Shown: piece after piece, positions 34,705 to 59,573 of the stretch
Layout of the letters: every line of letters starts with the position of its first letter
Numbering within the stretch: position 1 is the stretch's first letter
Assembly: GCA_025774935.1 (NCBI GenBank)
Contig: JALGZK010000003.1
Span: forward strand, 124,001 to 188,000
Length of the DNA stretch: 64,000 nt
DNA from: a bacterium
GTDB lineage: Bacteria > Joyebacterota > Joyebacteria > Joyebacterales > Joyebacteraceae
Direction of reading: 5' to 3'
Program-made: the position numbers and the translations under genes
Notes under the pieces: generated by a model
The model's input: the letters and a program-made list of their open reading frames with translations, nothing else
The model's database searches: none
Told to the model about the DNA's origin: nothing

Positions 34705-34728
34705 GGCCATCCGGCAAACCGGACGGCC
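34705..34728 (-). terminator. Hairpin ending the purine operon
   Basis: 10-bp arms with one mismatch in the DNA (a G-U pair in the minus-strand RNA: GGCCGUCCGG with CCGGAUGGCC) and a 4-base loop, 25 bases past the stop codon of the phosphatase gene. There is no long U tract. Confidence 0.55.
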
Positions 34729-34752
34729 CCGGGCGGGTGGTCCGTGCCGGGC

Positions 34753-36723
34753 CTACTGGCTGCCGGGCGTTCGGGCGTACGACGAGAAGTCGGGGACCTC
34801 GTCGATGGGGACGCCTGCCGTCGAGTACACCGTGAGCGACACACGATCGTCAGACACGTCGAAGAGGCAGTAGTGGTTCACGAGCGAGAACGCCTCGACG
34901 TTCCCCGACCACGGTGACGACAGATCCTGCACGTAGAACGGCGCGCCCGCGCCGCCGCTCACGATGTGCCACACCGGTCGCGTGAACGCCGGATCGACGT
35001 CCGAGTCGACGAGCGTTCGCGAGTAGTTGTGCTCGTCGCCGCTCATGAACGCGACGACCTTGTCGTGGCGCACGAGCGTCGTCCACAGCCTGTCGCGCAT
35101 GTCGATGACGTCGCCGAGCGGGACGTCGTGGTCGTTCAGCCCACCTTCGTGCCCCTTCCCCGCGTCTCCCCAGAACATCGCGTCCCACAGGTGCCCGCCG
35201 TTCGGGAACGCCGGCTCGTGCGTGAACACGAAGACCCAGTCGATGGCGTCGTCCTCCTGCGTCATCCTGAGATCCTCCTCGAGCCAGTCGAGCTGGTTCT
35301 GCATGACGTATCCCTCGCGGCATCCGCCGAGCACCTCGAGCGCGACCTCCGTGCCGTCCTTGTCGCTCGGGTAGCGCTTGGTTCCCGTGCTGTTCTTCAC
35401 GCCGGTGAACCAGTAGTTCGAGTTCAGGGAGACGAAGTGGCAGTTCCCGTGGTCGAACGAGTAGACGGTCTCGCCGTAGTCGGGACCGGTCGCGGTCCCG
35501 ACGCCCGTCTTGCGGGTCTCCGGGCCGAGGCAGAACCCGTACGAGCTCCCGCGGGGGTTCGCGAACGTGTCCGTGAAGATCGCTTCCGCGCTCCGAGGGT
35601 CCTCACGGTCTCGGAACATGACGATGCGGTAGCCGTCGTGCTCCGGATCGGGAACCTCGAAGTAGTCCCCGACCTGCTCGTGGTTCCCGACGCCCTCGTA
35701 GATCGGGAGCGAGGAGCCCACGAGACCGGCACAGCGCATCCAGGACGCGAGCTGTTGCTCGAAGGCATTCTGCGAGCTCGTGTACCCGCTGATGAGGTCG
35801 CCGCCGAACAGGAAGAGCTCGGCGCCCCGGGCGCGGGCGCCCGTCAGGACCGCCGCGAGGCCGGCGCGGTTCACGCCCTCGACCGCATGAGCGCCCCCGC
35901 CGGCGCCCGCCCGGCTGTCCGAGGCGAACCCGAACCGGAACCCCGATTCGCCGCGAGGGGGCGCGGTCGTTACCTCGTACGTCGGGGTCATCCCCCCGTC
36001 GTGCCCGTAGTGCACCCGGTACCCGTAGGCCGTCCGGGGCTCGAGCCCCGTCACACGGACCTCGTGTCTCTCCGAGGGCTCGGGAGCCACGAACTCGCGG
36101 TCCGCGACCACGACGGCCCCCGGCGCGGGGACGTCGGTCTCCCACGAGACGACGAACGAGTCCGGGCCGACGAGATCGACGAAGGGCCCGTGGACCATCG
36201 TGCTCGCGAGGCTGTATCTGCCCTCCTTCGGTTCGCCGTGCCTCTGGTAGCGAAAGCGGCGTTCGTATGTCCTGATCGACCCGTAGTCCGGGTCGTATAC
36301 CTCCACCTTGAATGCCACGACCCCACCTCCGCCCGCGACGAACCCGCTGTCGTAGAGCCTCGACTCGAGCTTCGAGACGTCCACGCGGATCCTGTGCAGC
36401 GTCGCCACCGAGCCCGGGTCGTCGCCGGGCTCGACCGCCACCCTCCGGTAGACTGGCTGCTCGATGCCGCCGGCGAGGAACACCGGCCCGTACCGCACGA
36501 CGGCCGGCGGAGTCGCGACGCTCGTCTCGAACTCGACGACCACCTTCGGTCCCTCGAACCCTGTCACGGCGGGCCCGCTCACGACGAGCGGCGACGCGCG
36601 GAAGCCGATCGGCGCGAGGTCCCCGAACGTGATCTCCGAGAGTGACGCCGGCGGCTCCGCAGACGAGGCGGCCGCCACAGCGACCACCAGAACCGCAATG
36701 GCGCTGAGCGCGATGGTCTTCAC
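34753..36723 (-). CDS. Secreted purple-acid-phosphatase-like metallophosphoesterase
   Basis: 656 residues from a GTG at 36723, eight bases after GGAGG; the longer reading frame upstream only overlaps the permease gene in another frame and is not coding. The protein begins MKTIALSAIAVLVVAVAAASSAEP, a signal peptide. An N-terminal Fn3-like region (about 150-270) is followed by a calcineurin-like fold with FASDSRAGAGGG, FLFGGDLISGY, GVGNHE, FVFTHEPAFP and SGDEHNYSR. Purple acid phosphatase relatives release phosphate from monoesters, including nucleotides. It is the last gene of the purine operon, 14 bases after the NupQ-type permease, so dephosphorylating extracellular or periplasmic nucleotides before uptake is a reasonable inference. 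Confidence 0.8.
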   Translation of the reverse strand: MKTIALSAIAVLVVAVAAASSAEPPASLSEITFGDLAPIGFRASPLVVSGPAVTGFEGPKVVVEFETSVATPPAVVRYGPVFLAGGIEQPVYRRVAVEPGDDPGSVATLHRIRVDVSKLESRLYDSGFVAGGGGVVAFKVEVYDPDYGSIRTYERRFRYQRHGEPKEGRYSLASTMVHGPFVDLVGPDSFVVSWETDVPAPGAVVVADREFVAPEPSERHEVRVTGLEPRTAYGYRVHYGHDGGMTPTYEVTTAPPRGESGFRFGFASDSRAGAGGGAHAVEGVNRAGLAAVLTGARARGAELFLFGGDLISGYTSSQNAFEQQLASWMRCAGLVGSSLPIYEGVGNHEQVGDYFEVPDPEHDGYRIVMFRDREDPRSAEAIFTDTFANPRGSSYGFCLGPETRKTGVGTATGPDYGETVYSFDHGNCHFVSLNSNYWFTGVKNSTGTKRYPSDKDGTEVALEVLGGCREGYVMQNQLDWLEEDLRMTQEDDAIDWVFVFTHEPAFPNGGHLWDAMFWGDAGKGHEGGLNDHDVPLGDVIDMRDRLWTTLVRHDKVVAFMSGDEHNYSRTLVDSDVDPAFTRPVWHIVSGGAGAPFYVQDLSSPWSGNVEAFSLVNHYCLFDVSDDRVSLTVYSTAGVPIDEVPDFSSYARTPGSQ

Positions 36724-36737
36724 TTCCAGTACCTCCG

Positions 36738-37640
36738 CTAGTAGGGCTTGCCGAGAGACGCCGGCGGGCGGGCGCGTCCGATCACGCCGACCAGGGCGAC
36801 CATCGTGAGCAGGTAGGGAATCATCTGCACGAACTGGGTCGGGACGTCGCGTCCCTGCAGGCTCATCTGCACGGCCTCCGCGTAGCCGAAGAGGAGGCAC
36901 GCGCCGAGCGCCCCGACGGGGTTCCACTTCCCGAAGATCATCGCCGCGAGCGCGATGAACCCGCGGCCTGCCGACATGTTCTTCACGAACTGGTGGGTGT
37001 TGAGGGCCAGGAAGGCGCCGCCGAGGCCCGCGAGCGCGCCGGAGATCAGGACGCCGGAGAACCGCATCAGATGGACGCTCACGCCGAGCGTGTCGACCGC
37101 CTCGGGGTGCTCGCCGGTCGCTCGGAGCCTGAGCCCGAAGGGCGTGCGGAAGAGAACGACATGCGCGAGGGCGACCGAGCCCAGGGCGACGTAGACGAGA
37201 GGCGGGTAGTGCCCGATCACCGGGTTGACGACGCGCGCGAGAACTCCCCACGATTCGGGCAGCGCCCAGTGAGCCATGCCGGCCACGGGCGGCGAGTTGG
37301 CGGAGCTGCCCCAGATGATCCACGTGAGGAACTGCGTCGCCCCCATCGCGAGGAGGTTGATCGCCACGCCGCTGACGATCTGGTCCGCGCGGAACACGAT
37401 CGATACGACGGCGTGAAGGAGGGACACGAGCATGCCCGCGAAGACGCCGGCGGCCGCCCCCGCCCAGGGGTCACCGGTGTAGTACGTCGCGACGATGCTC
37501 GCGAACGCGCCGGTCAGGAGGATCCCCTCGAGGGCGATGTTGACGACCCCCGAGCGCTCCGAGAAGAGGCCGCCGAGCGCCGTCAGGATGAGCGGCGTCG
37601 CCATCCTGAGGGCGGAGTCGAGAACCGCGAGTTCGAACAC
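36738..37640 (-). CDS. Nucleoside ABC transporter permease, NupQ/YufQ type
   Basis: 300 residues, GTG start after AGGGAGAAGG. About eight hydrophobic segments are present. The hallmark ERSGVVNIALEGILLTGAF, followed by VSGVAINLLAMGATQFL and GRGFIALAAMIFGKWNP, identifies the smaller permease of the BMP/Nup nucleoside ABC family (COG1079-like). Partners are the NupP-type permease (39350-40456), the double ATPase and the BMP lipoprotein. It is split from its partner permease by murJ, which is unusual. Confidence 0.88.
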   Translation of the reverse strand: MFELAVLDSALRMATPLILTALGGLFSERSGVVNIALEGILLTGAFASIVATYYTGDPWAGAAAGVFAGMLVSLLHAVVSIVFRADQIVSGVAINLLAMGATQFLTWIIWGSSANSPPVAGMAHWALPESWGVLARVVNPVIGHYPPLVYVALGSVALAHVVLFRTPFGLRLRATGEHPEAVDTLGVSVHLMRFSGVLISGALAGLGGAFLALNTHQFVKNMSAGRGFIALAAMIFGKWNPVGALGACLLFGYAEAVQMSLQGRDVPTQFVQMIPYLLTMVALVGVIGRARPPASLGKPY

Positions 37641-37691
37641 CGCCTGCCTTCTCCCTGTTCTCCAAGACGCGCCTCTTCCAGGCGCGCCGGG

Positions 37692-39353
37692 CTAGCCGGC
37701 TTCTCCCCTGCCGCGCCGGAGCTTCCCGAGGATCTCACCCACCCCAGACCTCACCATGTCCCACGTCTCGACGATCTGTCCCCGCGCGGTGAACCACGCC
37801 GCCCCGAGGTAGACGGCCGCGGCGAACGCGGAGGCGCCCACAAGGACGCCGATCCGCGGACCGAGAGTCGACGGGACGTCGAGCTGGACGATCCATCGCC
37901 CGAGGTAGTAGAGCGCGACCGCCATGACCGCCGTCGCCGCCGCCGTGCCACCGAACGCCTTCATGAGCGTTTTGAACCGCCCCTTCATGAGCACCGGCGG
38001 AAGCAGGATCAAGAAGAGAACGAGCTTGAACACGTGCGAGACCGACGTCGAGAGCGCGATGCCCGCGTGCTGGAAGCGGTCGAGGAACACGAAGATGAGC
38101 CCGACCTTGACCCCGAGCCTGACGAACCCCGCGATGACCGGCGTCTTCGTGTCCTTCATCGCAATGAACGCCGAGATCATCGTCGTCGTGAGGCCGAGCG
38201 CCCAGATGGTCGGCGAGTAGAGGAGGAGGGCGGACACCGTGTACGCGACGGACGTCTCGTCGAACGCTCCCCGCTGGAAGACGACGCGAACGAACGGCTC
38301 GCCCAGCATCGCCATGCCGACCGAGATCGGGAAGAGACTGAAGAACACGATCCTCATCGAGGTGTGGAGGCGGTCGGCGAGGAGCTCCGTCTCTCCCCGA
38401 GCCGCGAGTCTGGAGTAGAACGGGAAGAGCACGGTCCAGAACGCGGCGACGAGGACCTCCCTCGGGAGGTCGATAAGTCTGAGCGCGTAGGAGAGCCCGG
38501 AGATGCTGCCCTCGGCCAGGCCCGACGCGAACACGCGATCGATGACCTCGTCGAGCTTCGCCCCGGCCATGCCGATGAAGAGCGGAAGCCCCAGCTTGAG
38601 CACGCCCCAGAACATCTGGTTCCTGAAGTCGATGCGAACCCGGATGTGCTTCCGGTACCTCCAGAGGATCGGAGACTGAATGAGGAAGCTCGCGACCGAC
38701 GTCGCGATCGTTCCGAAGGCCATCGCGCGGATGCCGTAGCGCGCCGTGAAGAACAGGGCGACGCACATCATGATGACGTTGCTCGCCGGGTGGGTGAGCC
38801 CGGGCAGGACGAAGCTCCCGTACACGTGATGGACGTTCCGGAGCGTCCCGCCGACCGCGTAGAGGACGATCGTGACCGACATGATCCTGACGAGAGACGC
38901 GGCGAGCTCCCGGCTCGCGTCCCCGAATCCCGGTGCGATCAGCCCCACGAGCGACGGCGCCGCGATCCACACGGTAGTGGCGATCACGATCGACACGACG
39001 ATGAAGTTCCCCACGAACGTGCCGGCCGCGCGCCAGGCCTTCTCCTCCCCCTCCTTCTCGATGATCTCCGAGAAGAGCGGCACGAATCCGGAGCGGATCG
39101 GCGAGCGGTACCAGTGCAGGATCATCATCGGGATCGTCACGGCGACGAGGTACGCGTCCATGAGCGAGGTCGTCCCGAACTTCGACGCGACGACGATGTC
39201 CTTGAAGAGACCGAGCGCCTTTCCGACGACCGAGAGACCAATGACCCACACGGCGGACACGGCCACGCGGGCCAGCTGGCGGCTGTCGCTTCCGGTGGTT
39301 TCGGGTCCGTTCGACCCGATTCCGTTGAGCGTCTCTCCGCTCGAGTCGGTCAA
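37692..39353 (-). CDS. murJ: MurJ/MviN lipid II flippase family protein
   Basis: 553 residues with about 14 hydrophobic segments. The motif ALGLFKDIVVASKFGTTSLMDAYLVAVTIP near the N-terminus and the segment YRSPIRSGFVPLFSEIIEKEGEEKAWR match MurJ/MviN of the MOP exporter superfamily. MurJ moves lipid II across the inner membrane for peptidoglycan synthesis. The start is TTG at 39353 after GGAGGAGG, overlapping the stop of the NupP-type gene in TTGA, so the two are translationally coupled. Its place between two nucleoside permease genes has no obvious functional reason. A paralog exporting another lipid-linked precursor is an alternative. Confidence 0.82.
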   Translation of the reverse strand: MTDSSGETLNGIGSNGPETTGSDSRQLARVAVSAVWVIGLSVVGKALGLFKDIVVASKFGTTSLMDAYLVAVTIPMMILHWYRSPIRSGFVPLFSEIIEKEGEEKAWRAAGTFVGNFIVVSIVIATTVWIAAPSLVGLIAPGFGDASRELAASLVRIMSVTIVLYAVGGTLRNVHHVYGSFVLPGLTHPASNVIMMCVALFFTARYGIRAMAFGTIATSVASFLIQSPILWRYRKHIRVRIDFRNQMFWGVLKLGLPLFIGMAGAKLDEVIDRVFASGLAEGSISGLSYALRLIDLPREVLVAAFWTVLFPFYSRLAARGETELLADRLHTSMRIVFFSLFPISVGMAMLGEPFVRVVFQRGAFDETSVAYTVSALLLYSPTIWALGLTTTMISAFIAMKDTKTPVIAGFVRLGVKVGLIFVFLDRFQHAGIALSTSVSHVFKLVLFLILLPPVLMKGRFKTLMKAFGGTAAATAVMAVALYYLGRWIVQLDVPSTLGPRIGVLVGASAFAAAVYLGAAWFTARGQIVETWDMVRSGVGEILGKLRRGRGEAG

Positions 39354-40456
39354 GCAGCCTCCTCCGCTTGCGTGTCCGCGAGGGCGGCCCGCGCCTCACG
39401 GGCGGCGATCCTCCTCACGAAGATCTCGTTCCCGACAACGACGAGGATGATCGTCACCGCCTGGAGCACGAGGATGAGTTCGCGCGGCACGTCGGTGAAG
39501 ACGTCCACCTCCAGCGCTCCTGCGTTGAGCACTCCGAAGAGGAGCGCCGCGAAGAGCACCCCGAGCGGCGTGTTCTTCCCCAGAAGAGCGACCGCGATCC
39601 CCATGAAACCGATCCCGCTCGAGAAGTTGTCGAGGAAGCGGTGCCGGAACCCCATGACTTCGTTCGTCGCAACGAGGCCGGCGAACGCGCCGCTCGTGAT
39701 CATCGCAAGGACTATCGTGCGCCTGACGTTGATGCCCGCGCTCTCGGCCGCGTCCTGGTTCAACCCGACCGCCCGGACCTCGTACCCGAACGTGGTCCGA
39801 TAGAGGATGAACCACGCCACCCAGACGGCGGCGAGAGCGATGAGGATCGACGCGTTCAGGGGGTTCGCACTCGGCATCGGGATCCCCACGGCCTGGAGCG
39901 CGCCAGCGAGCCGCGGCAGGTGCCCCGACGCGATCTCCGCCGTCTGGGGCGTCATCTGCGCGGGCTCCTTGAAGATGTTGATGACGAGGTAGCTCGTGAG
40001 CCCGATCGCGATGAAGTTCATCATGATCGTGTTGATGACCTCGTGCACGCCGAAGCGCGCCTTGAGCATCCCGGGGACCGAAGCCCAGAGCGCTCCGCCC
40101 ACTGCGGAGACCGCGATCAGGACCGGCACAGCGATCCACCACGGTACCCCGGCGAGGCCGAGTCCGGCCCACGCGCAGAGGAACGACCCGATGTAGAGCT
40201 GACCCTCTCCGCCGATGTTGAAGAGCCCGGCCCTGAACGCGAAGGCAACGGCGAGCCCCGTGAAGATGAGCGGGCACGCGTTGAAGAGCACGAGGCCGAA
40301 ACCGTCGACGCTCCCGAACGCCCCCCGGAAGAGAATCGCGTAGACGCGGAACGGGCTCTCGCCGATGGCCGTGACTACGAGCCCTCCCACGAGGAAGGCC
40401 GCCGCGACCGCGACTATCGGGGACAGGACGCCCGCGTATCTGGTCCAGCGATCCAT
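39350..40456 (-). CDS. Nucleoside ABC transporter permease, NupP/YufP type
   Basis: 368 residues with about ten hydrophobic segments. LFNACPLIFTGLAVAFAFRAGLFNIGGEGQLYIGSFLCAW, VHEVINTIMMNFIA and GFMGIAVALLGKNTPLGVLFAALLFG are typical of the larger permease of the BMP/Nup family (COG4603-like). The ATG follows GAGGAG. The gene is 31 bases after the ATPase gene, and its stop overlaps the murJ start. Family members import purine and pyrimidine nucleosides. Confidence 0.88.
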   Translation of the reverse strand: MDRWTRYAGVLSPIVAVAAAFLVGGLVVTAIGESPFRVYAILFRGAFGSVDGFGLVLFNACPLIFTGLAVAFAFRAGLFNIGGEGQLYIGSFLCAWAGLGLAGVPWWIAVPVLIAVSAVGGALWASVPGMLKARFGVHEVINTIMMNFIAIGLTSYLVINIFKEPAQMTPQTAEIASGHLPRLAGALQAVGIPMPSANPLNASILIALAAVWVAWFILYRTTFGYEVRAVGLNQDAAESAGINVRRTIVLAMITSGAFAGLVATNEVMGFRHRFLDNFSSGIGFMGIAVALLGKNTPLGVLFAALLFGVLNAGALEVDVFTDVPRELILVLQAVTIILVVVGNEIFVRRIAAREARAALADTQAEEAA

Positions 40457-40487
40457 CGATCTCCTCTTCCGGCTCCCCGCAGCAGCC

Positions 40488-42071
40488 TCAGCTCCCCGCC
40501 CGACCTCGCTGCGGCGCTCCGGCCGCGCGCGGGGGCGCGGCCTGGCTTTCGCTTCGTCCGGCTCCGGCCCCGGTCATGTGGAGACCGAGCTCCTCCTCGC
40601 CGACCGCGTCTCCGTCGAACGTCGCGACGATCGCGCCCCGGTACATGACAGCGATCCGGTCGGAGAGCGTCATGATCTCGGAGAGCTCTGCGGACACGAG
40701 GAGCACAGCGGCGCCGGCGTCCCTCATGGAGAGGAGGCTCGTGTGCACGAACTCGACTGCGCCGATGTCGACGCCACGCGTTGGCTGCGACGCCACGAGG
40801 AGGGCCGGCTCGCAGTCGAACTCGCGCGCGACGATGAGCTTCTGTTGGTTCCCGCCGGAGAGGTTCGCGGCCTCGGTGGCGGGATCGGCCGGCCGGAGGT
40901 CGTGTTCCTCGATGAGCCTCGCGGCGTGATCGTTCATCTCGTCGAGGCAGAGACGCCCCAGCCGCGAGAACGGCTCGCGGTGCTGTCGTCCGAGCACGAG
41001 GTTCTCCGCGATCGTGAAGTCGAGAACGAGCCCGCGCGCCTGACGGTCTTCCGGGATGTGGGCCACCCCGAGGTCCCGGATGTGTCTCGGCGAACGGTTC
41101 GTGATGTCGGCGCCGTTCAGCGTCACCCGACCGGACGACGCCCTCCGCAGACCCGTGATGATCTCGACGAGCTCCGTCTGCCCGTTGCCCTGGACGCCTG
41201 CAACTCCGAGGACCTCCCCGGAGCGGATCTCGATGTCGACGTCCCGCAGGACCTCGGTCCCCTTCCGCCCGGCCGCCGAGAGCCCGCTCACGGAGAGCAC
41301 CGTGTCGCCGGGGCTGCCCTCTTCCTTCGTGACCCGGAGGAGGACGTAACGCCCGACCATCATCTTCGCGAGCTCCTCCTTCGTCGTCTGCGCCGCGTCG
41401 ACGATGCCCGTCACGCGGCCGTCACGCATGACGGTGACGCGGTCGGCAAGTTCGATGACCTCGTCGAGCTTGTGGGTGATGAAGACGATCGTGCGACCGC
41501 TCTCCCTGAGAGCGCGGAGGATACCGAAGAGCTCGCGGACTTCCTGAGGGGTGAGGACGCCGGTCGGTTCGTCGAGGATGAGGATCCTCGCACCGCGGTA
41601 GAGGACCTTGACGATCTCGACCCTCTGCTCGAGGCCGACCGAGAGGTTCTCGATGAGCTCGTCCGGGTCGAGCTCAAAGCCGTACTCGCCGGAGAGCGTT
41701 TCGACGCGTTCGCGCGCGGCCGCCGCGTCGATCACGACACCCCTAGTCGGCTCCTCGCCGAGGATGACGTTCTCCGCGACGGTCAGCGTGTCGACGAGCA
41801 TGAAGTGCTGGTGGACCATTCCGACGCCGGCGCGGATGGCGTCCGCCGGGCGGTGCCGGACGAGCGGCTTCCCCTCGAGCCGCACCTCACCGGCGTCCGG
41901 AGGAACGAGCCCGTAGAGGACCTTCATGAGCGTCGACTTGCCCGCGCCGTTCTCGCCGACGATGGCGTGTATCTCGCCCTCGCGGACGTCGAGGTCGACG
42001 CGGTCGTTCGCGAGAACGCGCGGGTACCGTTTGGTGATCCCGCGCATCTCGATCGCGTTCGTCTCCGGCAT
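40488..42071 (-). CDS. Nucleoside ABC transporter double ATPase, NupO/YufO type
   Basis: 527 residues with two ABC domains in tandem. The first has Walker A GENGAGKST (about 39-47), MVHQHFMLV, signature LSVGLEQRVEIVKVL and Walker B ARILILDEPT. The second (about 260-500) has a degenerate Walker A, GVQGNGQTEL, signature LSGGNQQKLIVARE and LLVASQPTRGVDIG. A degenerate second site is usual in RbsA/NupO-type ATPases. It belongs with the BMP lipoprotein 24 bases upstream and the permeases downstream. The last 30 residues are Ala/Gly/Arg-rich and probably disordered. Confidence 0.9.
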   Translation of the reverse strand: MPETNAIEMRGITKRYPRVLANDRVDLDVREGEIHAIVGENGAGKSTLMKVLYGLVPPDAGEVRLEGKPLVRHRPADAIRAGVGMVHQHFMLVDTLTVAENVILGEEPTRGVVIDAAAARERVETLSGEYGFELDPDELIENLSVGLEQRVEIVKVLYRGARILILDEPTGVLTPQEVRELFGILRALRESGRTIVFITHKLDEVIELADRVTVMRDGRVTGIVDAAQTTKEELAKMMVGRYVLLRVTKEEGSPGDTVLSVSGLSAAGRKGTEVLRDVDIEIRSGEVLGVAGVQGNGQTELVEIITGLRRASSGRVTLNGADITNRSPRHIRDLGVAHIPEDRQARGLVLDFTIAENLVLGRQHREPFSRLGRLCLDEMNDHAARLIEEHDLRPADPATEAANLSGGNQQKLIVAREFDCEPALLVASQPTRGVDIGAVEFVHTSLLSMRDAGAAVLLVSAELSEIMTLSDRIAVMYRGAIVATFDGDAVGEEELGLHMTGAGAGRSESQAAPPRAAGAPQRGRAGS

Positions 42072-42095
42072 TCCTCGGCGCCTCCGGGGGCGGGA

Positions 42096-44392: not shown

Positions 44393-44459
44393 GGTCGGTT
44401 CCTGGAGTAGTCGGCGAGAGGAGCCGGCAAGAGGTGCCGCGGCGCCGCGCGCCGCGTCT

Positions 44460-51893: not shown

Positions 51894-51924
51894 CTCGTAC
51901 CTCTCCAAAAGGAAAACCGACCCC

Positions 51925-51949: not shown

Positions 51950-52028
51950 GCCGGAGTCCCATGCCGGCGCGCAGATGCGCACCGACGCGCTGCCGTCCGT
52001 GGACGACCGACGGTCTTCGGACGGATTA

Positions 52029-52631: not shown

Positions 52632-52684
52632 AGTTCCTTCCGGGAGCTTCGAGTCCGCGAGGGACCTCGCCGCCCACGCCCGTA

Positions 52685-53845
52685 CTACGCGTGGGCCATC
52701 ATGCCGCTGATTCTCTCAATCGCCTTCTCGATGTTCTCGAGCGAGTTCGCGTAGCTGAATCTGAGGTATCCCTCGCCGTAGGCGCCGAAGCAGGTTCCGG
52801 ACAGACAGGCGACTCCGGCCTCGTTCAGGACCTTGTCGGCGAGCACCTGTGACTCGAGCCCGGTCTCGGTGATGTTCGGGAAGACGTAGAACGCACCCTT
52901 CGGCCTCAGGCACGAGATCCCCTTGATGCCGTTGAGGCCGTCGACGATCGCGTCGCGCCTCTGCTTGAAGATCCCGACCATCTCCTCGACCTTGTCCTGC
53001 GGCCCCTCGAGCGCCTCGATGCCGGCGAGCTGCACGAACGACGTCGCGTGGGAGTAGATGTTCGTGTTGAGCTTCGCGAACTTCTCCGCGATCGGCGTCG
53101 GCATCGCAGCGTACCCGAGCCGCCAGCCGGTCATGGCGTAGGTCTTGGAGTGCGCGTCCATGAGGATCGTGCGCTCCTTCATGCCGGGATACGTCACGAT
53201 CGAGTGATGCTCTCCTTCGTAGATGATCTTGCTGTAGACCTCGTCGGACAGCACGATCACGTCGTTCTCGACGGCGAGCTCGGCGATCCGCTTGAGATCG
53301 CTCTCCTCGAGCACGCCACCCGTCGGGTTCTGCGGCGAGTTGAGGATCAGCATCTTGGTCTTCGGGCTGATGATCGCCTCGAGATCCGCGATGTCGAACC
53401 GGAAGTCGCGTTCCTCCTTGAGCTTCAGGGGAATCGCCTTCCCGCCCGAGAACTCGATCGCCGACTCGTAGATCGGGTAGCCGGGATTCGGGTAGATGAC
53501 CTCGTCGCCGTGGTCGACGAGCGCGAGGATCGGCAGGAAGATGATCGGCTTCCCGCCCGGAGTGAGAATGATCTGATCGGGTGTGTACTCGACGCCGCGG
53601 TCCTTGGCGAAGTAGTTGCAGATCGCCTGCCTGGCCTCCATCAGTCCTGCGGACGGACCGTAGTGAGTATAGCCAGCCCAGATCGCCTTCTCGGCCGCCT
53701 TCCTGATGTTGTCGGGGGTGTCGAAGTCGGGCTCGCCGATCTCGAGGTGGACGATGTCCCGTCCCTGGGCCTCGAGCGCCCTTGCCTTCGCGAGAACCTC
53801 GAAGGCCGTCTCCGTGCCGAGCCTGTTCATCCTCTCCGCGAACAT
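52685..53845 (-). CDS. Class I/II pyridoxal-phosphate aminotransferase (aspartate aminotransferase-like)
   Basis: 386 residues from MFAERMNRLGTETAF, five bases after AAGGAGGG. An in-frame GTG at 53914, overlapping the preceding TGA, would add 23 charged residues and is a less likely start. The fold type I motifs are all there: THYGPSAGLMEAR, NSPQNPTGGV, LSDEVYSKIIYEG, and the cofactor lysine Lys234 in HSKTYAMTGWRLGY. AspC/AatA-type enzymes exchange aspartate or alanine with 2-oxoglutarate. In this operon it may handle an amino acid produced from purine breakdown or provide glutamate-linked nitrogen disposal; the substrate is not determined. Confidence 0.85.
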   Translation of the reverse strand: MFAERMNRLGTETAFEVLAKARALEAQGRDIVHLEIGEPDFDTPDNIRKAAEKAIWAGYTHYGPSAGLMEARQAICNYFAKDRGVEYTPDQIILTPGGKPIIFLPILALVDHGDEVIYPNPGYPIYESAIEFSGGKAIPLKLKEERDFRFDIADLEAIISPKTKMLILNSPQNPTGGVLEESDLKRIAELAVENDVIVLSDEVYSKIIYEGEHHSIVTYPGMKERTILMDAHSKTYAMTGWRLGYAAMPTPIAEKFAKLNTNIYSHATSFVQLAGIEALEGPQDKVEEMVGIFKQRRDAIVDGLNGIKGISCLRPKGAFYVFPNITETGLESQVLADKVLNEAGVACLSGTCFGAYGEGYLRFSYANSLENIEKAIERISGMMAHA

Positions 53846-53910
53846 CCCTTCCTCCTTCTGCTTCGTTTCCCGGCCCCGCTGTTCGCGGGACCTCGTGGCC
53901 ATTCCGCTCT

Positions 53911-54936
53911 TCACTGAACTCGATCCCTCGCCGCCTCGGTGTCCCGCCCCTCGAGCGAGCGCTTCCTCGACAGCACCTCACGGACCGCGGAAGCGATGTC
54001 GCGCGACTTCAGCCCGAAGTGCGACAGCAGCTGCTCGTGCTCCCCCGACTCGCCGAAGCGGTCCTCGATTCCCACGATCTTGATCGGCGTTGGTCTGGAC
54101 GATTGCGCGAGCGCTTCCGCCACCGCGCCCCCGAGTCCGCCGATGGTCGATCCCTCCTCCGCCGTCACGAGCGCTCCGGTCTCGACCGCTGCGCGGTTGA
54201 CGATGGCGCGGTCGAGCGGCTTGATCGTGTGGCAGTTGATCACGCGTACGCCGAGCCCGTCGTCCTCCAACAGCCTCGCCGCCTTCAGCGCCTCGTAGAG
54301 CATGACGCCGTTCGTGAGCACCGAGGCGTCGTCGCCCTGCCGATAGACGCCGGCCTGGCCGATCGTGAACGGCGTGATGTTCGTCGTGATGATAGGGACC
54401 CTCGCCGCCGCGAATCTGATGTAGACGGGACCTGGCGTCCGCGCCGCCGCGACCGTGGCCTTCCGGGCCTCGACCGCGTCGGTCGGAACGATGACCGTCA
54501 TTCCGGGGAGCGTCCGCATGACGGCGACGTCTTCCAGTGACTGTCTCGAACCGCCCGCCCCTCCCGCTGAGAGCCCCGCGTCGGCGCCACAGATGTTCAC
54601 GTTCAGCGATCCGTAGCAGATCGTGGAACGGATGATGTCCCAGGCCTTCCCTGCCGCCAGCATCCCGTGCGTCGTGACGAAGACGCACTTCCCGGCGAGC
54701 GCGAGTCCGGCGGCCGTTCCGATCATGTCCTGCTCGCAAAGCCCGATGTCCAGGAACCGGTCCGGGAACCTCTTCCGGAAACCGCTCGTTCCGCTCGATC
54801 CCGCGAGGTCGGCGTCCATCACTATGATGTCCGTACCCCGCTCCGCGAGTTCGATCAGGCCGCGCTCGTAGCCTCTGTTGGTCGCCTCTGTCTCGACGAC
54901 GCTGTGATGGATGTCGACCAATCCCATTTCGGCCAT
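53911..54936 (-). CDS. Transketolase, C-terminal (pyrimidine-binding and C-domain) subunit
   Basis: 341 residues covering the pyrimidine-binding domain (about 15-185; LCEQDMIGTAAGLALAGKCVFVTTHG, with the catalytic Glu in CEQ) and the transketolase C-terminal domain (about 200-320; DGLGVRVINCHTIKPLD). The N-terminal half is the separate gene 97 bases upstream. Split transketolases are common in archaea and anaerobes. The enzyme would route pentose phosphates, for example ribose released from nucleosides, into central metabolism. GGAG lies seven bases before the ATG. The intergenic gap holds a small 6-bp hairpin (54967-54982). Confidence 0.88.
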   Translation of the reverse strand: MAEMGLVDIHHSVVETEATNRGYERGLIELAERGTDIIVMDADLAGSSGTSGFRKRFPDRFLDIGLCEQDMIGTAAGLALAGKCVFVTTHGMLAAGKAWDIIRSTICYGSLNVNICGADAGLSAGGAGGSRQSLEDVAVMRTLPGMTVIVPTDAVEARKATVAAARTPGPVYIRFAAARVPIITTNITPFTIGQAGVYRQGDDASVLTNGVMLYEALKAARLLEDDGLGVRVINCHTIKPLDRAIVNRAAVETGALVTAEEGSTIGGLGGAVAEALAQSSRPTPIKIVGIEDRFGESGEHEQLLSHFGLKSRDIASAVREVLSRKRSLEGRDTEAARDRVQ

Positions 54937-55033
54937 GTCAAACTCCTCGATGAACTCCCGCCATCCCGACGGTCACCCGTCGCCACCGCCTCCCTTCAGA
55001 GCCCCGCCGTGCCGCACCCGCCCCCTCCAACTC

Positions 55034-55849
55034 TCAGGCCAGCGCCTTCATCGCTTCCTCGTAGAGGTCCTCGGTCAGCTTCCTGTCGTGCCACTCGGCC
55101 TTGTTCTCCATGAACGGCACGCCCTTGCCCTTCACGGTCCTCGCGATGACGACCGTCGGCTGGCCCTTGACCGACGCGGCCTCAGAGAACGCAGCAGTGA
55201 GCTGCTCGACGTTGTGGCCGTCGATCTCGACCACGTGCCAGTTGAAGGTCCTCCACTTGTCCTGGAGCGGCGACAGGGCGACGATGTCCTCCGTGCCGCC
55301 GTCTCCCATCATCCGGTTCCGGTCGATGACCGCGCAGACGTTATCGAGCTTGTGGTGCGCGGCGGTCATGCCTGCCTCCCAGACCTGCCCTTCGTGGGCC
55401 TCGCCGTCGCCCATGAGGCAGTAGATCCGGTACTGCCGCCCGTCACGCTTCGCCGCCATTGCGATCCCGTTAGCGATGGAGAGTCCCTGCCCGGGCGACC
55501 CGACGGAAGCATCGATGCCCGGTGTCTTGTGCATGTCCGGGAACCCCTGGAGCTTCGTGCGGATCTTCCGGAAGGTGAGCAGGTCCTTGACGTCGAAGTA
55601 CCCGCGCCTCGCCAGCGCCGCGTAGAGGGCCGGCGCTGCGTGAGCCTTCGAGAGTACGAGGCGGTCGCGCTCCTCCCACGACGGGCGATCCGGCCGCACT
55701 CGCATCACCCCCCAGTAAAGGGCGACGAGGATGTCGACCGACGAGAGCGACCCTCCCGCGTGCCCGGACCCCGCCTCGAGGAGCATCGTGAGCACGTCCC
55801 GTCTCACGACCTTCGCGATGTCCCTGAGCTCGATCGGTGTGGGACTCAT
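55034..55849 (-). CDS. Transketolase, N-terminal (diphosphate-binding) subunit
   Basis: 271 residues equal to the thiamine-diphosphate-binding half of transketolase. SGHAGGSLSSVDILVALYWGVM, SKAHAAPALYAALARRG and GSPGQGLSIANGIAMAAK lead to the cofactor motif GDGEAHEGQVWEAGMTAAHHKLDN. It ends at residue 271 and is completed by the next gene. AGGAG lies six bases before the ATG. It starts nine bases after the PPC-domain gene. Together the pair interconverts pentose and hexose phosphates in the non-oxidative pentose phosphate route. Confidence 0.9.
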   Translation of the reverse strand: MSPTPIELRDIAKVVRRDVLTMLLEAGSGHAGGSLSSVDILVALYWGVMRVRPDRPSWEERDRLVLSKAHAAPALYAALARRGYFDVKDLLTFRKIRTKLQGFPDMHKTPGIDASVGSPGQGLSIANGIAMAAKRDGRQYRIYCLMGDGEAHEGQVWEAGMTAAHHKLDNVCAVIDRNRMMGDGGTEDIVALSPLQDKWRTFNWHVVEIDGHNVEQLTAAFSEAASVKGQPTVVIARTVKGKGVPFMENKAEWHDRKLTEDLYEEAMKALA

Positions 55850-55858
55850 GTGTCTCTC

Positions 55859-56281
55859 CTACTTGAATGTCAGCGCCATGAGGCCGGTCGCCTCGTCGAG
55901 TTCGCGCGCGGCCTTGATGTCGGACTTCACGAGCACGAGTTCGTTGGTCACGTTCACCTTCCCTTTCGAGAGGTGTCCCGCGACCGTCTCCTTGCTTCGT
56001 CGCGCGAGCACGGCGTGGAAGTGGAAGTTGTACTCTCCGCCCTGACGGATGACGTTACCAGTCATCGAGACTAGCTCCATGGGCTCGGGGAAGAGGACCG
56101 GCGCATAGCGTCCCGTTCCCACGAAGAAGTTGAGCTCCGCCTGCTTGAGCATCCCGATCGCCGACACCAGGATCCCGACCTCGACCTTGCACGCGGCGCA
56201 TACCTCCTTGAGCGACTCGAAGAGGTCCTCGTCCTGGTGGAGGCGGATCATGATGAGGTTGCCGGACTGTCTGTATTCCAT
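55859..56281 (-). CDS. PPC/DUF296-domain protein
   Basis: 140 residues from MEYRQSGNLIMIRLHQDEDLFESL, a normal length for a stand-alone PPC (plant and prokaryote conserved, DUF296) domain. GILVSAIGMLKQAEL, the Gly-rich turn VGTGRYAP and the glycine/histidine stretch GGEYNFHFHAVLA are characteristic. An upstream ATG at 56329 lacks a binding site. Bacterial PPC proteins form trimers. Some have been proposed to bind DNA or small metabolites, but their function is mostly unknown. Its place among purine genes could mean a regulatory or ligand-binding role in this pathway. Confidence 0.8.
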   Translation of the reverse strand: MEYRQSGNLIMIRLHQDEDLFESLKEVCAACKVEVGILVSAIGMLKQAELNFFVGTGRYAPVLFPEPMELVSMTGNVIRQGGEYNFHFHAVLARRSKETVAGHLSKGKVNVTNELVLVKSDIKAARELDEATGLMALTFK

Positions 56282-56346
56282 TCCCTGGTGGTCCCCTTCC
56301 GGCGGCGCGACCCGTGTGGTTCGGTGCATTCAGTCGCGCGGCCAGG

Positions 56347-56820
56347 TTACGCCGACGCCTTCTCAATCGCGTCGACGATCTTCACGTACCCCGTGCACCT
56401 GCACAGGTTCCCCGACACCGCTCTCTCGATCTCACTCCGCGAGGGGGCCGGGTTCGACGCAAGGAGCGCGTAAGCCGACATGATCATCCCGGGTGTGCAG
56501 TACCCGCACTGGACCGCCCCGACCTCGACGAACGCGCGCTGGATCGGGTGCCGCTCGCCGTCGGAGTCGGAAGCCGCGCCGGCGTCGGCGAGTCCCTCGA
56601 TCGTGAGAACCTCGCGACCCGCGCACTGCACGGCGAAGACGAGGCACGAGTTCACCGGTTCGCCGTCGAGGATCACGGTGCACGCGCCGCACTCCCCGTG
56701 CCCGCACCCCACCTTCGTTCCCGTGAGGCCGAGGTGCTCCCGGAGGAGCTCGACGAGCGTCGTGGTCGGCCCGACGTCTGCGAACCGCTCGCGTCCGTTG
56801 ACAGTCAGCGTGATCTCCAC
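56347..56820 (-). CDS. Xanthine dehydrogenase-type 2Fe-2S subunit
   Basis: 157 residues from a GTG at 56820 (VEITLTVNGRERF), just after AGAGGAG; the longer frame upstream is not family-like. The first 2Fe-2S cluster ligands are in GCGHGECGACTVILDG and NSCLVFA. The second cluster ligands are in CGYCTPGMIM and CRCTGYVKIVDAI. Such subunits pass electrons from the molybdenum centre to the FAD subunit. It lies 17 bases after the threonine-synthase-like gene. The FAD partner is encoded 6 kb downstream in the same operon. The catalytic molybdenum subunit is missing from the window. Confidence 0.92.
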   Translation of the reverse strand: MEITLTVNGRERFADVGPTTTLVELLREHLGLTGTKVGCGHGECGACTVILDGEPVNSCLVFAVQCAGREVLTIEGLADAGAASDSDGERHPIQRAFVEVGAVQCGYCTPGMIMSAYALLASNPAPSRSEIERAVSGNLCRCTGYVKIVDAIEKASA

Positions 56821-56837
56821 GATCTCCTCTGACTCCC

Positions 56838-58085
56838 CTAAATCTCCGCCCGGTCCCTGAGCGCCCGCTCGACGTCCTCGAGCGAGCGTCCGACGGGCAC
56901 CGCTTCCCCTGCAGCTCGCATGGCGCTCTCGGTGTCCTTCAGACCGCTTCCCGTCATGAGCACGACGACGGTGTCGTCGGGGGTGACGGAGCCCTCGCGG
57001 ACCGCCGCGGCCAGTCCCGCGAACGCGGTCACGCCGGCGGGCTCGCCGAATACGCCCGTTGACCTTGCGAGCTCGGCCATCCCCGCGAGGATCGCGTCGT
57101 CGGGGACGGCCATCATGCGTCCCCCGCTCGCCCGAACACCTCGCACGGCCTTCCGCCAGTTGCGGGGATGGCCGCACGCGATGCTGTCGGCGCAGGTGTC
57201 GGCCTCACACGGCACGAGCTCGCAGAGCCCGTCGAAGGCCTCCCTGATCGGGTCACACCCTTCGGCCTGGACCCCGACTAGCTCCGGGACCTTCTCCGTG
57301 AACCCGAGCTTCTCGAACTCCGCGAATCCCTTGTAGACGCCGCTCATGATGCACCCGTCGCCTACGGGGACGAAGACCTTGTCGGGCACCTCGAAGTCAA
57401 GCTGTTCGCACACTTCGAGAGCGACGGTCTTCTTCCCCTCGACAAGGTAGGGGTTCACGGCGCAGGAGCGGTTGTACCAGCCGAAAGCAGCGATCGCCTC
57501 GGACGCGAGATCGAACGCGTCGCCGTAGGTGCCGTCTACGGCGAAGACGGTCGCCCCGAGCACCAGCAGCTGCGCGACCTTCGGCGAGGGCGCGTCGGCC
57601 GGAACGAAGATGTAGCACGGCAGTCCCTGCGCCGCCGCAAAGCCCGCAAGCGAGCACCCGGCGTTGCCGGTCGACGCCGCCGCGACCGCCGAAACGCCCT
57701 CCTCCGCCGCCCGCGCCATCGCTACCGACGTCGCGCGGTCCTTGAGCGACGCCGTCGGATTCATGCTGTCGTCCTTGACGTACAGGTTCGGAAGCCCGAG
57801 GACGCCCTCAGCGTGATAGAGCGGGGTCCAGCCCGTCCTTAGAACCGGGAGCGTCTCTTCCGAGCCGATCGGCAGGAGCGGCATGTAGCGCCAGTGGGAG
57901 TTTTCGATGGACCGCTCGAGGTCGGCGCGGGAGAACTCCCTCGCGATCTCGTCGTAGTCGTAGAGGACGTCGAGAATCCCCTCGAGCCCGCAGTCGACGC
58001 AGGTGTACGTCACCTCGCCCGGCGCGTATACCCGGTCGCACAACACGCACTTGAATCCCGTGACCCTCGCGCCGCTCCGATCCAT
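56838..58085 (-). CDS. Threonine synthase-like pyridoxal-phosphate enzyme with N-terminal zinc ribbon
   Basis: 415 residues. The ATG at 58085 overlaps the SsnA stop (TGATG) and follows GGAAGG. A four-cysteine zinc ribbon (Cys13, Cys16, Cys29, Cys32) precedes a fold type II core with the cofactor lysine Lys115 in NPTASLKDRATS, then ASTGNAGCSLAGFAAAQG and VLMTGSGLKD. Threonine synthases make threonine from phosphohomoserine. In E. coli the comparable position of the purine gene set is taken by YgeX, a diaminopropionate ammonia-lyase of the same fold. A beta-eliminating or replacing activity on a purine-derived amino acid is therefore possible, but true threonine synthase is not excluded. Confidence 0.8.
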   Translation of the reverse strand: MDRSGARVTGFKCVLCDRVYAPGEVTYTCVDCGLEGILDVLYDYDEIAREFSRADLERSIENSHWRYMPLLPIGSEETLPVLRTGWTPLYHAEGVLGLPNLYVKDDSMNPTASLKDRATSVAMARAAEEGVSAVAAASTGNAGCSLAGFAAAQGLPCYIFVPADAPSPKVAQLLVLGATVFAVDGTYGDAFDLASEAIAAFGWYNRSCAVNPYLVEGKKTVALEVCEQLDFEVPDKVFVPVGDGCIMSGVYKGFAEFEKLGFTEKVPELVGVQAEGCDPIREAFDGLCELVPCEADTCADSIACGHPRNWRKAVRGVRASGGRMMAVPDDAILAGMAELARSTGVFGEPAGVTAFAGLAAAVREGSVTPDDTVVVLMTGSGLKDTESAMRAAGEAVPVGRSLEDVERALRDRAEI

Positions 58086-59431
58086 CACATGGCCTTCCAC
58101 AGGTCCCGGGCGCACGCTCGCGCCTCGGCCATGACCTCTTCATCGTCGACCGTCAGGATCTCCCGGTCCAGCATGATGACCCTGCCGTTCACGATCACGG
58201 TCTCCACCATCCAGCCCGTGAGTCCGAAGATGACGTGCCCCGTGAGATTGCCCGCTTCGAGCGGGGTCGGCGGATCGTAGTCCAGCACGATGAGGTCCGC
58301 CAGGGCCCCCGGCTCCAGCACACCGACCGTCTCCCCGAAGAGGCGCGAGGCCACCACAGGGTTGCACTCGAGGCAGAGCCTCGGGCCCACGCCGTGTCCT
58401 ACCCGCGGGTCTCCCGCTTCGTGCCGGTGAATCAGGTTCGCGGCCTTCATCTCGTCGAACATGCTCGCGGTGAACCCGTCCGTCCCGAGACCCACGAGCG
58501 CTCCTTCATCGAGGAGCGTCGGGACGGCCGCACAACCGACCGCGTTGTTCATGTTCGATTGCGGGTTGTGAACCACGATCGTGTCGGTCTCCTTGAGGAG
58601 CGCCCGCTCGCGCTCGTCGACATGGATGCAGTGCGCGGCGATCGTCCTCGGGCCGAGGATGCCGAAGGAGTGAAGCCGCTCGACGACTCTGGTCCCGGAA
58701 CGGCGGACGCTGTCCTCTACGTCGGCGCGGTCCTCGGCGACGTGAACGTGGCACCCGACCCCGAACCGGTCAGCCACCGCGGCCGCCCGCTCCAGAGTTC
58801 CGTCCTCCAGCGTGAAGCTCGCGTGGAGACCGACGCTCGCCGTCAGCATCGCGTCACCGCTCGAGCCCCCGCCATCCGCCGCGAAACGCTCGTTCTCGGC
58901 GAGCCCATCGTCACGCACGGACGGTCCGTCGCGGTCCGTGACCTCGAAACACAGGTTCGCCCTCAGCCCGACGTCGGCGAGCGCGTCCGCGAGCGTGTGC
59001 AGGCTGCCCTCCACCGTGGCCTGACTCGCGTGGTGGTCGACAATCGTCGTCGTCCCGTTCCGGATGAGGTCGACCGCTCCCGCCAGAGCCGAAGCGCGGA
59101 CTCCATCGAGCGTCAGCGCGCGGTCCAGCCGCCACCAGAGGTGCTCGAGGATCTCAGTGAAGTTCGAGGAGGGCTCGATCTCCGCGATGAGGCCCCTGGC
59201 CAGTGCGCTGTAGAGGTGCGTGTGCGCGTTCACGAGCCCCGGCATCACAAGCCGGCCTGTGGCGTCGATCACCTCAGCGTCGGGATGCCGGTCCAGGACC
59301 TCGCCGAGCTCTCCGACGGCCACCACGCGCGACCCGCGAATCGCCACGCCGCCGTCCGGGACCACCCGTCCTGACGCTCCGCCGGTGGCAACTGCACCGC
59401 CCCCCACGACGATCTCGCGTTCCCCACCCAT
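58085..59431 (-). CDS. ssnA: SsnA-like aminohydrolase of the purine degradation gene set
   Basis: 448 residues from MGGEREIVVGGG, behind GAGGG. Amidohydrolase superfamily: metal ligands in GLVNAHTHLYSALARG (66 on), HVHVAEDRADVEDS, AAHCIHVDERE, and HNPQSNMNNAVG plus GTDGFTASMFDE, the last two typical of the SsnA/chlorohydrolase branch. SsnA is encoded with xanthine-dehydrogenase-type genes in E. coli and is required in anaerobic purine/urate degradation; guanine deaminase is the nearest alternative. It is the first gene of the 22-gene operon, with the next start overlapping its stop. Confidence 0.87.
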   Translation of the reverse strand: MGGEREIVVGGGAVATGGASGRVVPDGGVAIRGSRVVAVGELGEVLDRHPDAEVIDATGRLVMPGLVNAHTHLYSALARGLIAEIEPSSNFTEILEHLWWRLDRALTLDGVRASALAGAVDLIRNGTTTIVDHHASQATVEGSLHTLADALADVGLRANLCFEVTDRDGPSVRDDGLAENERFAADGGGSSGDAMLTASVGLHASFTLEDGTLERAAAVADRFGVGCHVHVAEDRADVEDSVRRSGTRVVERLHSFGILGPRTIAAHCIHVDERERALLKETDTIVVHNPQSNMNNAVGCAAVPTLLDEGALVGLGTDGFTASMFDEMKAANLIHRHEAGDPRVGHGVGPRLCLECNPVVASRLFGETVGVLEPGALADLIVLDYDPPTPLEAGNLTGHVIFGLTGWMVETVIVNGRVIMLDREILTVDDEEVMAEARACARDLWKAM

Positions 59432-59507
59432 GCTCGCACCCTCAGGACGCACGCCGACGCTCGAACGGCGCATCCGGCGCCGCTCAGGTTGACGACCAAA
59501 CTGGGAC

Positions 59508-59534
59508 GAAAGCGCCCTAAGACTAGGGACTTTC
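59508..59534 (-). other. Two-part hairpin at the start of the ssnA leader
   Basis: On the minus strand GAAAG pairs with CTTTC (outer, 5 bp) and CCCTA with TAGGG (inner, 5 bp), joined by a 1x2 internal loop and capped by a 4-base loop. It would be at the very 5' end of the operon mRNA. It does not match any riboswitch consensus I can recall. A role in transcript stability or ligand sensing is open. Confidence 0.45.
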
Positions 59535-59544
59535 CGAACTTATA

Positions 59545-59573
59545 AGGTTACGGGAGGGTTCTTGCGCTGTCAA
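59545..59573 (-). promoter_or_regulatory. Sigma70-type promoter of the purine operon
   Basis: A perfect TTGACA, exactly 17 bases, then TAACCT on the minus strand. The -10 keeps the key TA...T positions. A second AT-rich hexamer, TTATAA, lies a few bases further downstream at suboptimal spacing. Predicted start is near 59538, giving a leader of about 107 bases. Confidence 0.6.

Follow-up and report, generated by a model that had tools for sequence, protein, structure and literature searches.

A 22-gene row in a Joyebacteraceae genome as the probable core of a variant reductive urate pathway coupled to nucleoside uptake

The DNA analyzed here, hereafter the window, is a 64,000-nucleotide stretch (contig 2, positions 124001-188000) of a 3.24 Mb Joyebacteraceae genome (GCA_025774935.1; 40 contigs, 96% complete). 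Its minus strand carries 22 consecutive genes, of which ssnA is the first and a gene for a secreted metallophosphatase, ending at 34753, the last. We assign a probability of about 0.6 to the reading that this operon encodes the central part of a variant reductive urate pathway linked to the uptake of nucleosides. In this variant, two carbamoyltransferases, OTC1 and OTC2, would between them phosphorolyse both ureido groups. What is new here is a predicted variant ending of a known pathway, in a lineage that the published distribution does not name. The reading is carried by the gene identities, a conserved gene order, a joint loss of genes, the lack of YgeY and YgeX at the limits used and an exchange within a single slot, all of which were read directly from the genomes compared.

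Proposed pathway and gene content

In the proposed scheme, the secreted phosphatase may first strip phosphate, and nucleosides would be taken up by a BMP/Nup-type ATP-binding cassette (ABC) importer. Adenine would be deaminated by Ade, and the oxidation state of the purine would be altered by a molybdenum (Mo) hydroxylase composed of the [2Fe-2S] and FAD subunits of the operon and an unlinked, orphan catalytic subunit. The ring would be reduced by PreT-PreA, encoded elsewhere, and SsnA and HyuA would open the two rings to yield diureidopropionate. One ureido group each would then be split off phosphorolytically by OTC1 and OTC2, which would leave diaminopropionate and release two molecules of carbamoyl phosphate. 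From the latter, carbamate kinase could form two ATP (versus one), and the PALP lyase would convert diaminopropionate to pyruvate and ammonia. All substrates and fluxes of this scheme are predicted, as are the reactions assigned to OTC1, OTC2 and PALP and the pairing of Mo hydroxylase subunits from separate loci. The genes were identified with Pfam and NCBIfam profiles and follow each other in the order given here, closed by the hairpin behind the last gene (scores in bits, cut-offs in brackets).

58085-59473, minus: ssnA, aminohydrolase of the reductive urate pathway; NF005540 553 (444), TIGR03314 528.6 (455.5)
56838-58085, minus: PALP, threonine-synthase-like PLP enzyme, proposed diaminopropionate lyase replacing YgeX; PF00291, TIGR00260
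56347-56820, minus: [2Fe-2S] subunit of a Mo hydroxylase; PF01799, PF00111
55859-56281, minus: PCC/PPC-domain protein, possible regulator; PF03479
55034-55849, minus: transketolase, N-terminal half; PF00456
53911-54936, minus: transketolase, C-terminal half; PF02779, PF02780
52685-53845, minus: class I aminotransferase; PF00155, nearest solved structures aromatic/aspartate aminotransferases
52029-52631, minus: MocA/YgfJ-like molybdopterin nucleotidyltransferase; TIGR03310 150.5, below cut-off (186.45)
51066-51893, minus: XdhC/CoxI-type maturation factor of Mo enzymes; PF13478, PF02625
50179-51069, minus: YqeB, selenium-dependent molybdenum cofactor protein; TIGR03309 315 (220)
49323-50219, minus: FAD subunit of a Mo hydroxylase; PF00941, PF03450
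48207-49304, minus: OTC1, carbamoyltransferase of its own clade, not YgeW; PF02729/PF00185, tree
47210-48217, minus: OTC2, second, distinct carbamoyltransferase; PF02729/PF00185, clade support 100/99
46192-47145, minus: arcC, carbamate kinase; TIGR00746 400 (358)
44460-46178, minus: ade, adenine deaminase; TIGR01178 651 (472.5)
43103-44392, minus: MFS transporter, no substrate assigned; PF07690
42096-43106, minus: bmp, BMP/PnrA-type substrate-binding lipoprotein; PF02608
40488-42071, minus: ABC importer ATPase with two ATPase domains; PF00005 in two stretches
39350-40456, minus: ABC importer permease 1; PF02653
37692-39353, minus: murJ, MurJ-family lipid II flippase; TIGR01695 266 (235.6)
36738-37640, minus: ABC importer permease 2; PF02653
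34753-36723, minus: secreted metallophosphatase-like protein, possible nucleotidase, weak matches; PF00149 22.7 (21.5), PF16656 26.8, below cut-off (30)
34690-34755, minus: hairpin after the last gene; -42.8 kcal/mol, z -3.06

The carbamoyltransferase pair

In E. coli, YgeW phosphorolyses one ureido group and YgeY hydrolyses the other, after which YgeX acts (passages of PMC12507026; PMC12990295). A total of 386 genomes was searched, and the family of the window comprises 20 genomes (cited below by number, with the prefix G). YgeY was found in 0 of these 20 at E <= 1e-90 (model TIGR03526; 58 of 386 overall) and YgeX in 0 of 20 at E <= 1e-80 (model NF006058; 9 of 386 overall). OTC1 and OTC2 stand in tandem in the family; OTC2 is full length in 17 of the 20 genomes, is partial in G012 and was not found in G007 and G014.

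A tree of 70 carbamoyltransferase rows, none of which was dropped, separated an OTC2 clade (support 100/99), an OTC1 clade (91/91 including one long outside row, 100/95 for the core) and a YgeW clade (100/98). The last holds E. coli YgeW and 20 of 20 placed single carbamoyltransferases from SsnA-positive genomes. OTC1 is nearest to YgeW (85/80), yet its clade is separate, and the YgeW models TIGR03316 and NF005538 (cut-offs 500 and 453) were passed neither by OTC1 (168.5 and 176.9 bits) nor by OTC2 (121.1 and 126.4 bits). The partner that OTC2 has in G319 and G090 is not placed within the OTC1 clade. The superfamily motifs SxRT, HPxQ and HxLP (as listed in a passage of PMC4581275) appear as SLRT, HPCQ and HCLP in OTC1 and as SxRTR, HPCQ and HPMP, one variation from HxLP, in OTC2. 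The proline loop (KPLSVPQS in OTC1) that OTC1 and YgeW keep is missing from OTC2. A single-sequence AlphaFold2 model of OTC2 had a mean pLDDT of 38.5 and was not used.

Outside the family, OTC2 was counted at scores above 310 bits and occurred in 16 genomes from nine families. Within one genus, a single slot, flanked on either side by homologous sequence, reads arcC-OTC1-OTC2 in G119 and arcC-ygeY-ygeW in G257 and G385. Directly after ygeW, G257 carries a frameshifted remnant in which a 31-residue stub, 68% identical to OTC1 of G119, is joined to OTC2 sequence whose final 81 residues (the OTC2 C-terminus) are 85% identical; in G385 no such remnant was seen. Because this remnant adjoins ygeW in the same slot, we conclude from the comparison that ygeY-ygeW displaced the OTC1-OTC2 pair in place in G257. 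Family f14 contains G032, with YgeY and a single YgeW-type gene, as well as G180 and G319, with OTC2 and no YgeY match. Given the swap in a single slot, OTC1 and OTC2 together most likely perform the combined function of YgeW and YgeY.

The alternative that bears most directly on the pair is an ordinary urate pathway with a side enzyme. OTC1 would then do the job of YgeW, another hydrolase that of YgeY, and OTC2 would act on another ureido compound or serve as a non-catalytic partner of OTC1. A candidate for the hydrolase is the alpha/beta-hydrolase-like protein encoded beside HyuA (PF12146, 22.4 bits, below cut-off), whose gene is next to HyuA in eight of the nine other family stretches that contain HyuA. 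The HPMP motif and the missing loop of OTC2 would fit this alternative, and so would the presence of both YgeY and OTC2 in 10 of the 16 outside genomes (in the same cluster in G112 and G379), by which a strict replacement, never both, was rejected as well. Because the two coexist there, OTC2 may act otherwise in those genomes. Even so, we regard the side enzyme as unlikely: ygeY-ygeW replaced OTC1-OTC2 as a unit in one slot, the same exchange separates G032 from G180 and G319, OTC2 retains SxRTR and HPCQ, and the hydrolase-like gene survives in G007, which lost the urate genes.

Among the 56 SsnA-positive genomes outside the family, all 28 with a single YgeW-like gene have YgeY (adjacent in 21); 20 of these 28 were placed in the tree and eight were counted as YgeW-like by score alone. 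YgeY is lacking in 5 of the 14 with OTC2 versus 3 of the 42 without it (Fisher p 0.018, a guide only, as the genomes are related). This tally omits G102, G236, G320, G350 and G384, the sole carbamoyltransferase match of which lies below 170 bits and none of which is in the SsnA list, and a third, low-scoring carbamoyltransferase match in G119. A PCC-domain gene with 30% identity to that of the window lies close to the OTC1-OTC2 pair of the distant genome G155 (L224:9096-9488), a neighborhood that hints at regulation of OTC1-OTC2 by the PCC protein.

Conservation and joint gene loss

The order of the genes was compared by tblastn with stretches from 17 other family genomes, G014 and G015 being left out, and it was kept in all 17 as far as the contigs reach, apart from exceptions in G007, G013 and G003. 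All 22 genes are present in G010. In G013 the MFS gene is reduced to a 32-residue match, and in G003 the metallophosphatase had no match in the 638 bases remaining beyond permease 2. Since the order is kept across the family, the row is not a chance arrangement. The 13 family loci in a collection of named genomes (L044-L056) all had the same neighbors in the same order, although several are the same contigs, so that they are not independent. One comparison set left out matches shorter than 600 bases. SsnA was found at E <= 1e-100 in 15 of the 20 family genomes, and in G017 as two pieces that jointly exceed the cut-off. A biological loss of ssnA in G001 and G018 was rejected, as their contigs end inside the operon; in the 400-contig assembly of G014, ssnA and OTC2 had no match.

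G007 (97% complete) is a natural deletion. SsnA, OTC1, OTC2 and PALP were not found anywhere in this genome at the limits used, nor were the PreA class and the orphan Mo gene. The [2Fe-2S], XdhC-like, YqeB and FAD genes are absent from its operon stretch, and the metallophosphatase is not found between permease 2 and the next gene; distant [2Fe-2S], FAD and XdhC-like genes lie beside its other Mo gene. Retained on one contig and in the same order are HyuA (53% identity), the hydrolase-like gene, PCC, both transketolase halves, the aminotransferase and the mocA-like gene, followed by arcC, ade, the MFS gene, bmp, the ATPase, permease 1, murJ and permease 2. The genes lost jointly, two of them unlinked, look like a urate module, and those retained like a resident nucleoside/adenine operon. 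The row thus appears to consist of two modules, as G007 keeps the transketolase pair, aminotransferase, Ade, importer and MurJ without the urate genes. Next to the only Mo hydroxylase found in G007, two adjacent open reading frames (L158:5112-8382) resemble histidine/aromatic ammonia-lyases by eye.

Ring reduction and ring opening

Both SsnA models, NF005540 and TIGR03314, were passed by the product of the first gene. In the urate cluster of C. difficile, SsnA and HyuA cleave the rings, and a PydA homologue, UacX, is present (passages of PMC12507026). HyuA is encoded at C2:188488-189891, equivalent to 64488-65891 of the window and hence beyond both the window and the operon, 5 kb upstream of ssnA and separated from it by genes on the opposite strand; it scored 447 bits with the dihydropyrimidinase/D-hydantoinase model TIGR02033 (cut-off 393). 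HyuA exceeded this cut-off in 10 of 13 family genomes searched. PreA and PreT, the parts of a reductase of the dihydropyrimidine dehydrogenase type, lie at about C2:238568-241131, roughly 51 kb beyond the window. In G004 the order is PreT-PreA-hydrolase-HyuA, one opposite-strand gene, then ssnA. The PreA class was present in 8 of the 13 family genomes, and its sequence cannot separate yanthine from uracil as the substrate.

These enzymes could instead belong to a pyrimidine route, with PreTA as dihydropyrimidine dehydrogenase, HyuA as dihydropyrimidinase and a carbamoyltransferase that frees carbamoyl phosphate from ureidopropionate, leaving beta-alanine for the aminotransferase. PreA of G004 does match NAD-dependent dihydropyrimidine dehydrogenase (529.5 bits, cut-off 335), HyuA matches the dihydropyrimidinase model, and the operon has an aminotransferase, although one of class I, nearest to aspartate/aromatic enzymes. 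We consider this route quite improbable, as SsnA, Ade, YqeB, the MocA-like protein and the Mo hydroxylase subunits are parts of purine pathways, the PreA class is missing together with ssnA in G007, and the urate cluster of C. difficile itself uses the PydA homologue UacX (PMC12507026, in part).

The molybdenum hydroxylase

No Mo catalytic subunit is encoded within the row, an absence that the original prediction had overlooked. Three MoCoBD_1 genes were found elsewhere in the genome, two of them with their own [2Fe-2S] and FAD genes nearby. The third, on contig 18 (C18), is an orphan with no [2Fe-2S] or FAD gene within the 19 kb examined. Its orthologues (66-86% identity) occur in 18 of the 20 family genomes, its own included and some as pieces at contig ends. 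In G003 (100% complete) the orphan type is the only such Mo gene, and in G007 it is missing and the one Mo gene, 33% identical, has its own partners. The simplest reading is that the operon [2Fe-2S] and FAD subunits and the C18 subunit form one enzyme from two loci. In G290, Mo genes of a related type lie beside [2Fe-2S], FAD, PreA, a HyuA-like gene, ssnA and one end of OTC1; the contig that bears the other end of OTC1 holds PALP-arcC-OTC2.

The Mo enzyme of contig 30 (C30, group B) was also considered as the partner of the operon subunits. It is the less likely one, because it has its own [2Fe-2S] and FAD genes and G003 holds only the orphan type. Two Mo enzymes may be involved, with that of C30 the closer relative of XdhD. 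On the same contig (L124:12164-17225), a complete Mo hydroxylase set, the catalytic subunit of which groups with E. coli XdhD, precedes a further SsnA-like amidohydrolase (26% identity).

The PALP lyase

PALP passed the threonine synthase model TIGR00260 (203.7 bits, cut-off 167.1), and its nearest solved structures are threonine synthases. An assignment as YgeX proper was rejected (NF006058, 56 bits, cut-off 276). PALP might accordingly be the threonine synthase of the cell, and the row a standard purine cluster interspersed with housekeeping genes (threonine synthase, MurJ, transketolase, aminotransferase); the finding of no other such gene in the family at E <= 1e-20 would agree with this. 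We nevertheless hold this explanation to be very improbable. Of the 17 outside genomes compared, nine (G032, G037, G119, G155, G180, G184, G250, G290 and G379) have PALP clustered with ssnA or OTC2-arcC, and G007, which lacks ssnA, has no TIGR00260 match (E <= 1e-20) either. Where the threonine synthases 2zsj and 6cgq have GNT, GNA and EGQ, the PALP rows have GNA and GDG (all 19) and EGK (18 of the 19); some of these differing positions presumably bind the substrate phosphate. YgeX is rare among SsnA-positive genomes generally (3 of 56 outside the family), so the exchange of PALP for YgeX may be widespread among them.

Evidence opposing the proposed pathway

Besides the coexistence of YgeY and OTC2, several observations weigh against the proposed variant pathway. 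The absence of YgeY and YgeX depends on the E-value limits of 1e-90 and 1e-80, and both YgeY and OTC2 are lacking in three SsnA-positive genomes. No threonine-synthase-like gene other than PALP was found in the family. G005 carries the operon but not the orphan Mo subunit, and in the tree E. coli XdhD is placed nearer to the C30 Mo gene than to the orphan. The PreA class was not found in 5 of the 13 family genomes searched, four of which (G001, G008, G011 and G012) have the operon. HyuA exceeds its cut-off in 10 and not in all of the 13, and a diverged copy is kept in G007, which is without the urate genes. Finally, phosphorolysis of a ureido group is uphill, as remarked for YgeW in a passage of PMC12507026, and would need the pull of ArcC and PALP.

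Layout of the row and sequence signals

The continuous row of 22 minus-strand genes announced by the original prediction was borne out. The start of ssnA is at 59473 or, more likely, at 59431. From ssnA onwards, the 21 junctions measure -1, 17, 65, 9, 97, 65, 53, 135, -4, -41, 18, -11, 64, 13, 67, -4, 24, 31, -4, 51 and 14 bases, a range of -41 to 135, and include the 11-base and 41-base overlaps that had been noted. A consensus promoter had been claimed before ssnA; a perfect TTGACA is present (about 59573-59568), but no good second hexamer lies at 16-18 bases. The promoter scan of 41000-60500 gave one hit, which is not before ssnA (1.1 expected). The hairpin 3' of the last gene is indeed strong and is without a T run; the terminator scan of 33000-41000 gave no hits. 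The next gene downstream of the row is preceded by a promoter-like site (10/12). The next gene upstream of ssnA (59769-60926) is followed by a very stable hairpin (59700-59745, z -4.86) with no long T run; this lineage may use hairpins that lack a T run as its terminators. The predicted single transcript across the row is plausible.

Importer and neighboring genes

The importer has all its parts by Pfam, namely the BMP lipoprotein (PF02608), the double ATPase (PF00005 twice) and two permeases (PF02653 twice); its substrate is predicted. Its completeness was thereby confirmed, and the broader claim of purine import and anaerobic purine/urate degradation ending in carbamate kinase was supported, with SsnA, YqeB, ArcC and Ade all passing curated cut-offs. 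The row was not self-contained as claimed, the Mo catalytic subunit, HyuA and PreTA being encoded elsewhere, and the supposed YgeW-like carbamoyltransferase turned out to be a pair from two non-YgeW clades. The fusion with the importer is present in the row and is not unique to it, since ssnA-ade and a BMP/Nup-type importer also share a cluster in G032, G180 and G119. The second carbamoyltransferase, murJ between the permeases and HyuA just past the window had been missed.

In all six other family genomes that cover the site (G003, G004, G007, G010, G013 and G018), murJ lies between the two permease genes. The transketolase halves also precede a related aminotransferase (39-41% identity) on two Synergistales contigs (L078 and L084); the halves and the aminotransferase may form a unit of their own. 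Elsewhere in the window (503-15377), three consecutive minus-strand open reading frames of about 1575 codons each were observed. Only the first was scanned; it gave a match to a type IX sorting domain and weak ones to type IX sortase.

Significance

It took until 2025 for the reductive urate pathway to be elucidated in gut bacteria. The phyla named in the distribution section and a figure legend of PMC12507026 do not include the present one. In the named collection, relatives are called Candidatus Eisenbacteria, 'bacterium' and, once, Candidatus Effluviviaceae Genus IV; the Effluviviaceae are a family within the cold-seep phylum Candidatus Effluviviacota (according to a passage of PMC11323493). 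The main text of PMC11323493 contains no occurrence of purine, xanthine, nucleoside, uric, adenine or carbamoyl, and, judging by titles, none of the papers retrieved for 'Eisenbacteria' and purines deals with this subject. The claim of a lineage without earlier description was upheld by the main text of the phylum paper and by the published distribution. Paired carbamoyltransferases in this pathway were not found in print, although Liu et al. 2025 (Nature Microbiology) could mention them.

A commentary (PMC12990295) lists as open points the ureido group cleaved by YgeW and whether the pathway is ancient or a recent gut adaptation, and leans to the latter. An intact-looking, family-wide version in a mainly seep-sediment lineage bears on both questions; its last steps would conserve energy in a way of their own, and an exchange with the gut-type steps is documented. 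We give about even odds to a wider proposal, that this is a second, independent solution to anaerobic urate fermentation. OTC1 and OTC2 would cash both ureido groups and so double substrate-level ATP, and the two genes would change places jointly with YgeW-YgeY; a distribution over this family and nine others among the 386 genomes searched would point to an old environmental pathway and not to a recent gut adaptation. The operon suggests a way for an uncultured phylum to live partly on nucleic acid debris, and it offers two purifiable enzymes with a simple predicted assay.

Comparison with known systems

The urate clusters of E. coli (xdhD-ygfM, ygfK, ssnA, hyuA, ygeW, yqeA, ygeY, ygeX) and C. 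difficile share with the present system SsnA, HyuA, a candidate flavin/Fe-S ring reductase of the PydA kind (as UacX), Mo hydroxylase subunits, YqeB, MocA-like factors, a carbamoyltransferase, carbamate kinase and a lyase of the PALP superfamily (passages of PMC12507026). In contrast to them, no YgeY or YgeX was found here, the two carbamoyltransferases are outside the YgeW clade, and the lyase is threonine-synthase-like. The Mo catalytic subunit, HyuA and PreTA lie outside the operon, and the remaining genes form one row with a BMP/Nup importer, Ade, a split transketolase and MurJ. The cluster of G032, from another family (L040, L168), has in common ssnA, ade, a hydantoinase/allantoinase-like enzyme, a carbamoyltransferase, arcC, the BMP/Nup importer and the same PALP (54% identity). 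It differs in having one carbamoyltransferase, of the YgeW clade, beside YgeY, and adjacent Mo, [2Fe-2S] and YgfM-like FAD genes; its 38-kb stretch has no match to the transketolase halves, the aminotransferase or MurJ.

The proposed OTC2 step has a chemical precedent in reverse, because a diaminopropionate carbamoyltransferase is known from antibiotic biosynthesis: L-2,3-diaminopropionate transcarbamylase (DPTCase) of the zwittermicin and viomycin clusters would catalyze the opposite reaction (passages of PMC4581275). DPTCase serves biosynthesis and is likened to OTC2 by its reaction only. The energy pathways of arginine and agmatine deiminase likewise combine phosphorolysis of a ureido group by a carbamoyltransferase with ATP formation by carbamate kinase, whereas the substrate here would be a purine breakdown product with, as proposed, two ureido groups per molecule.

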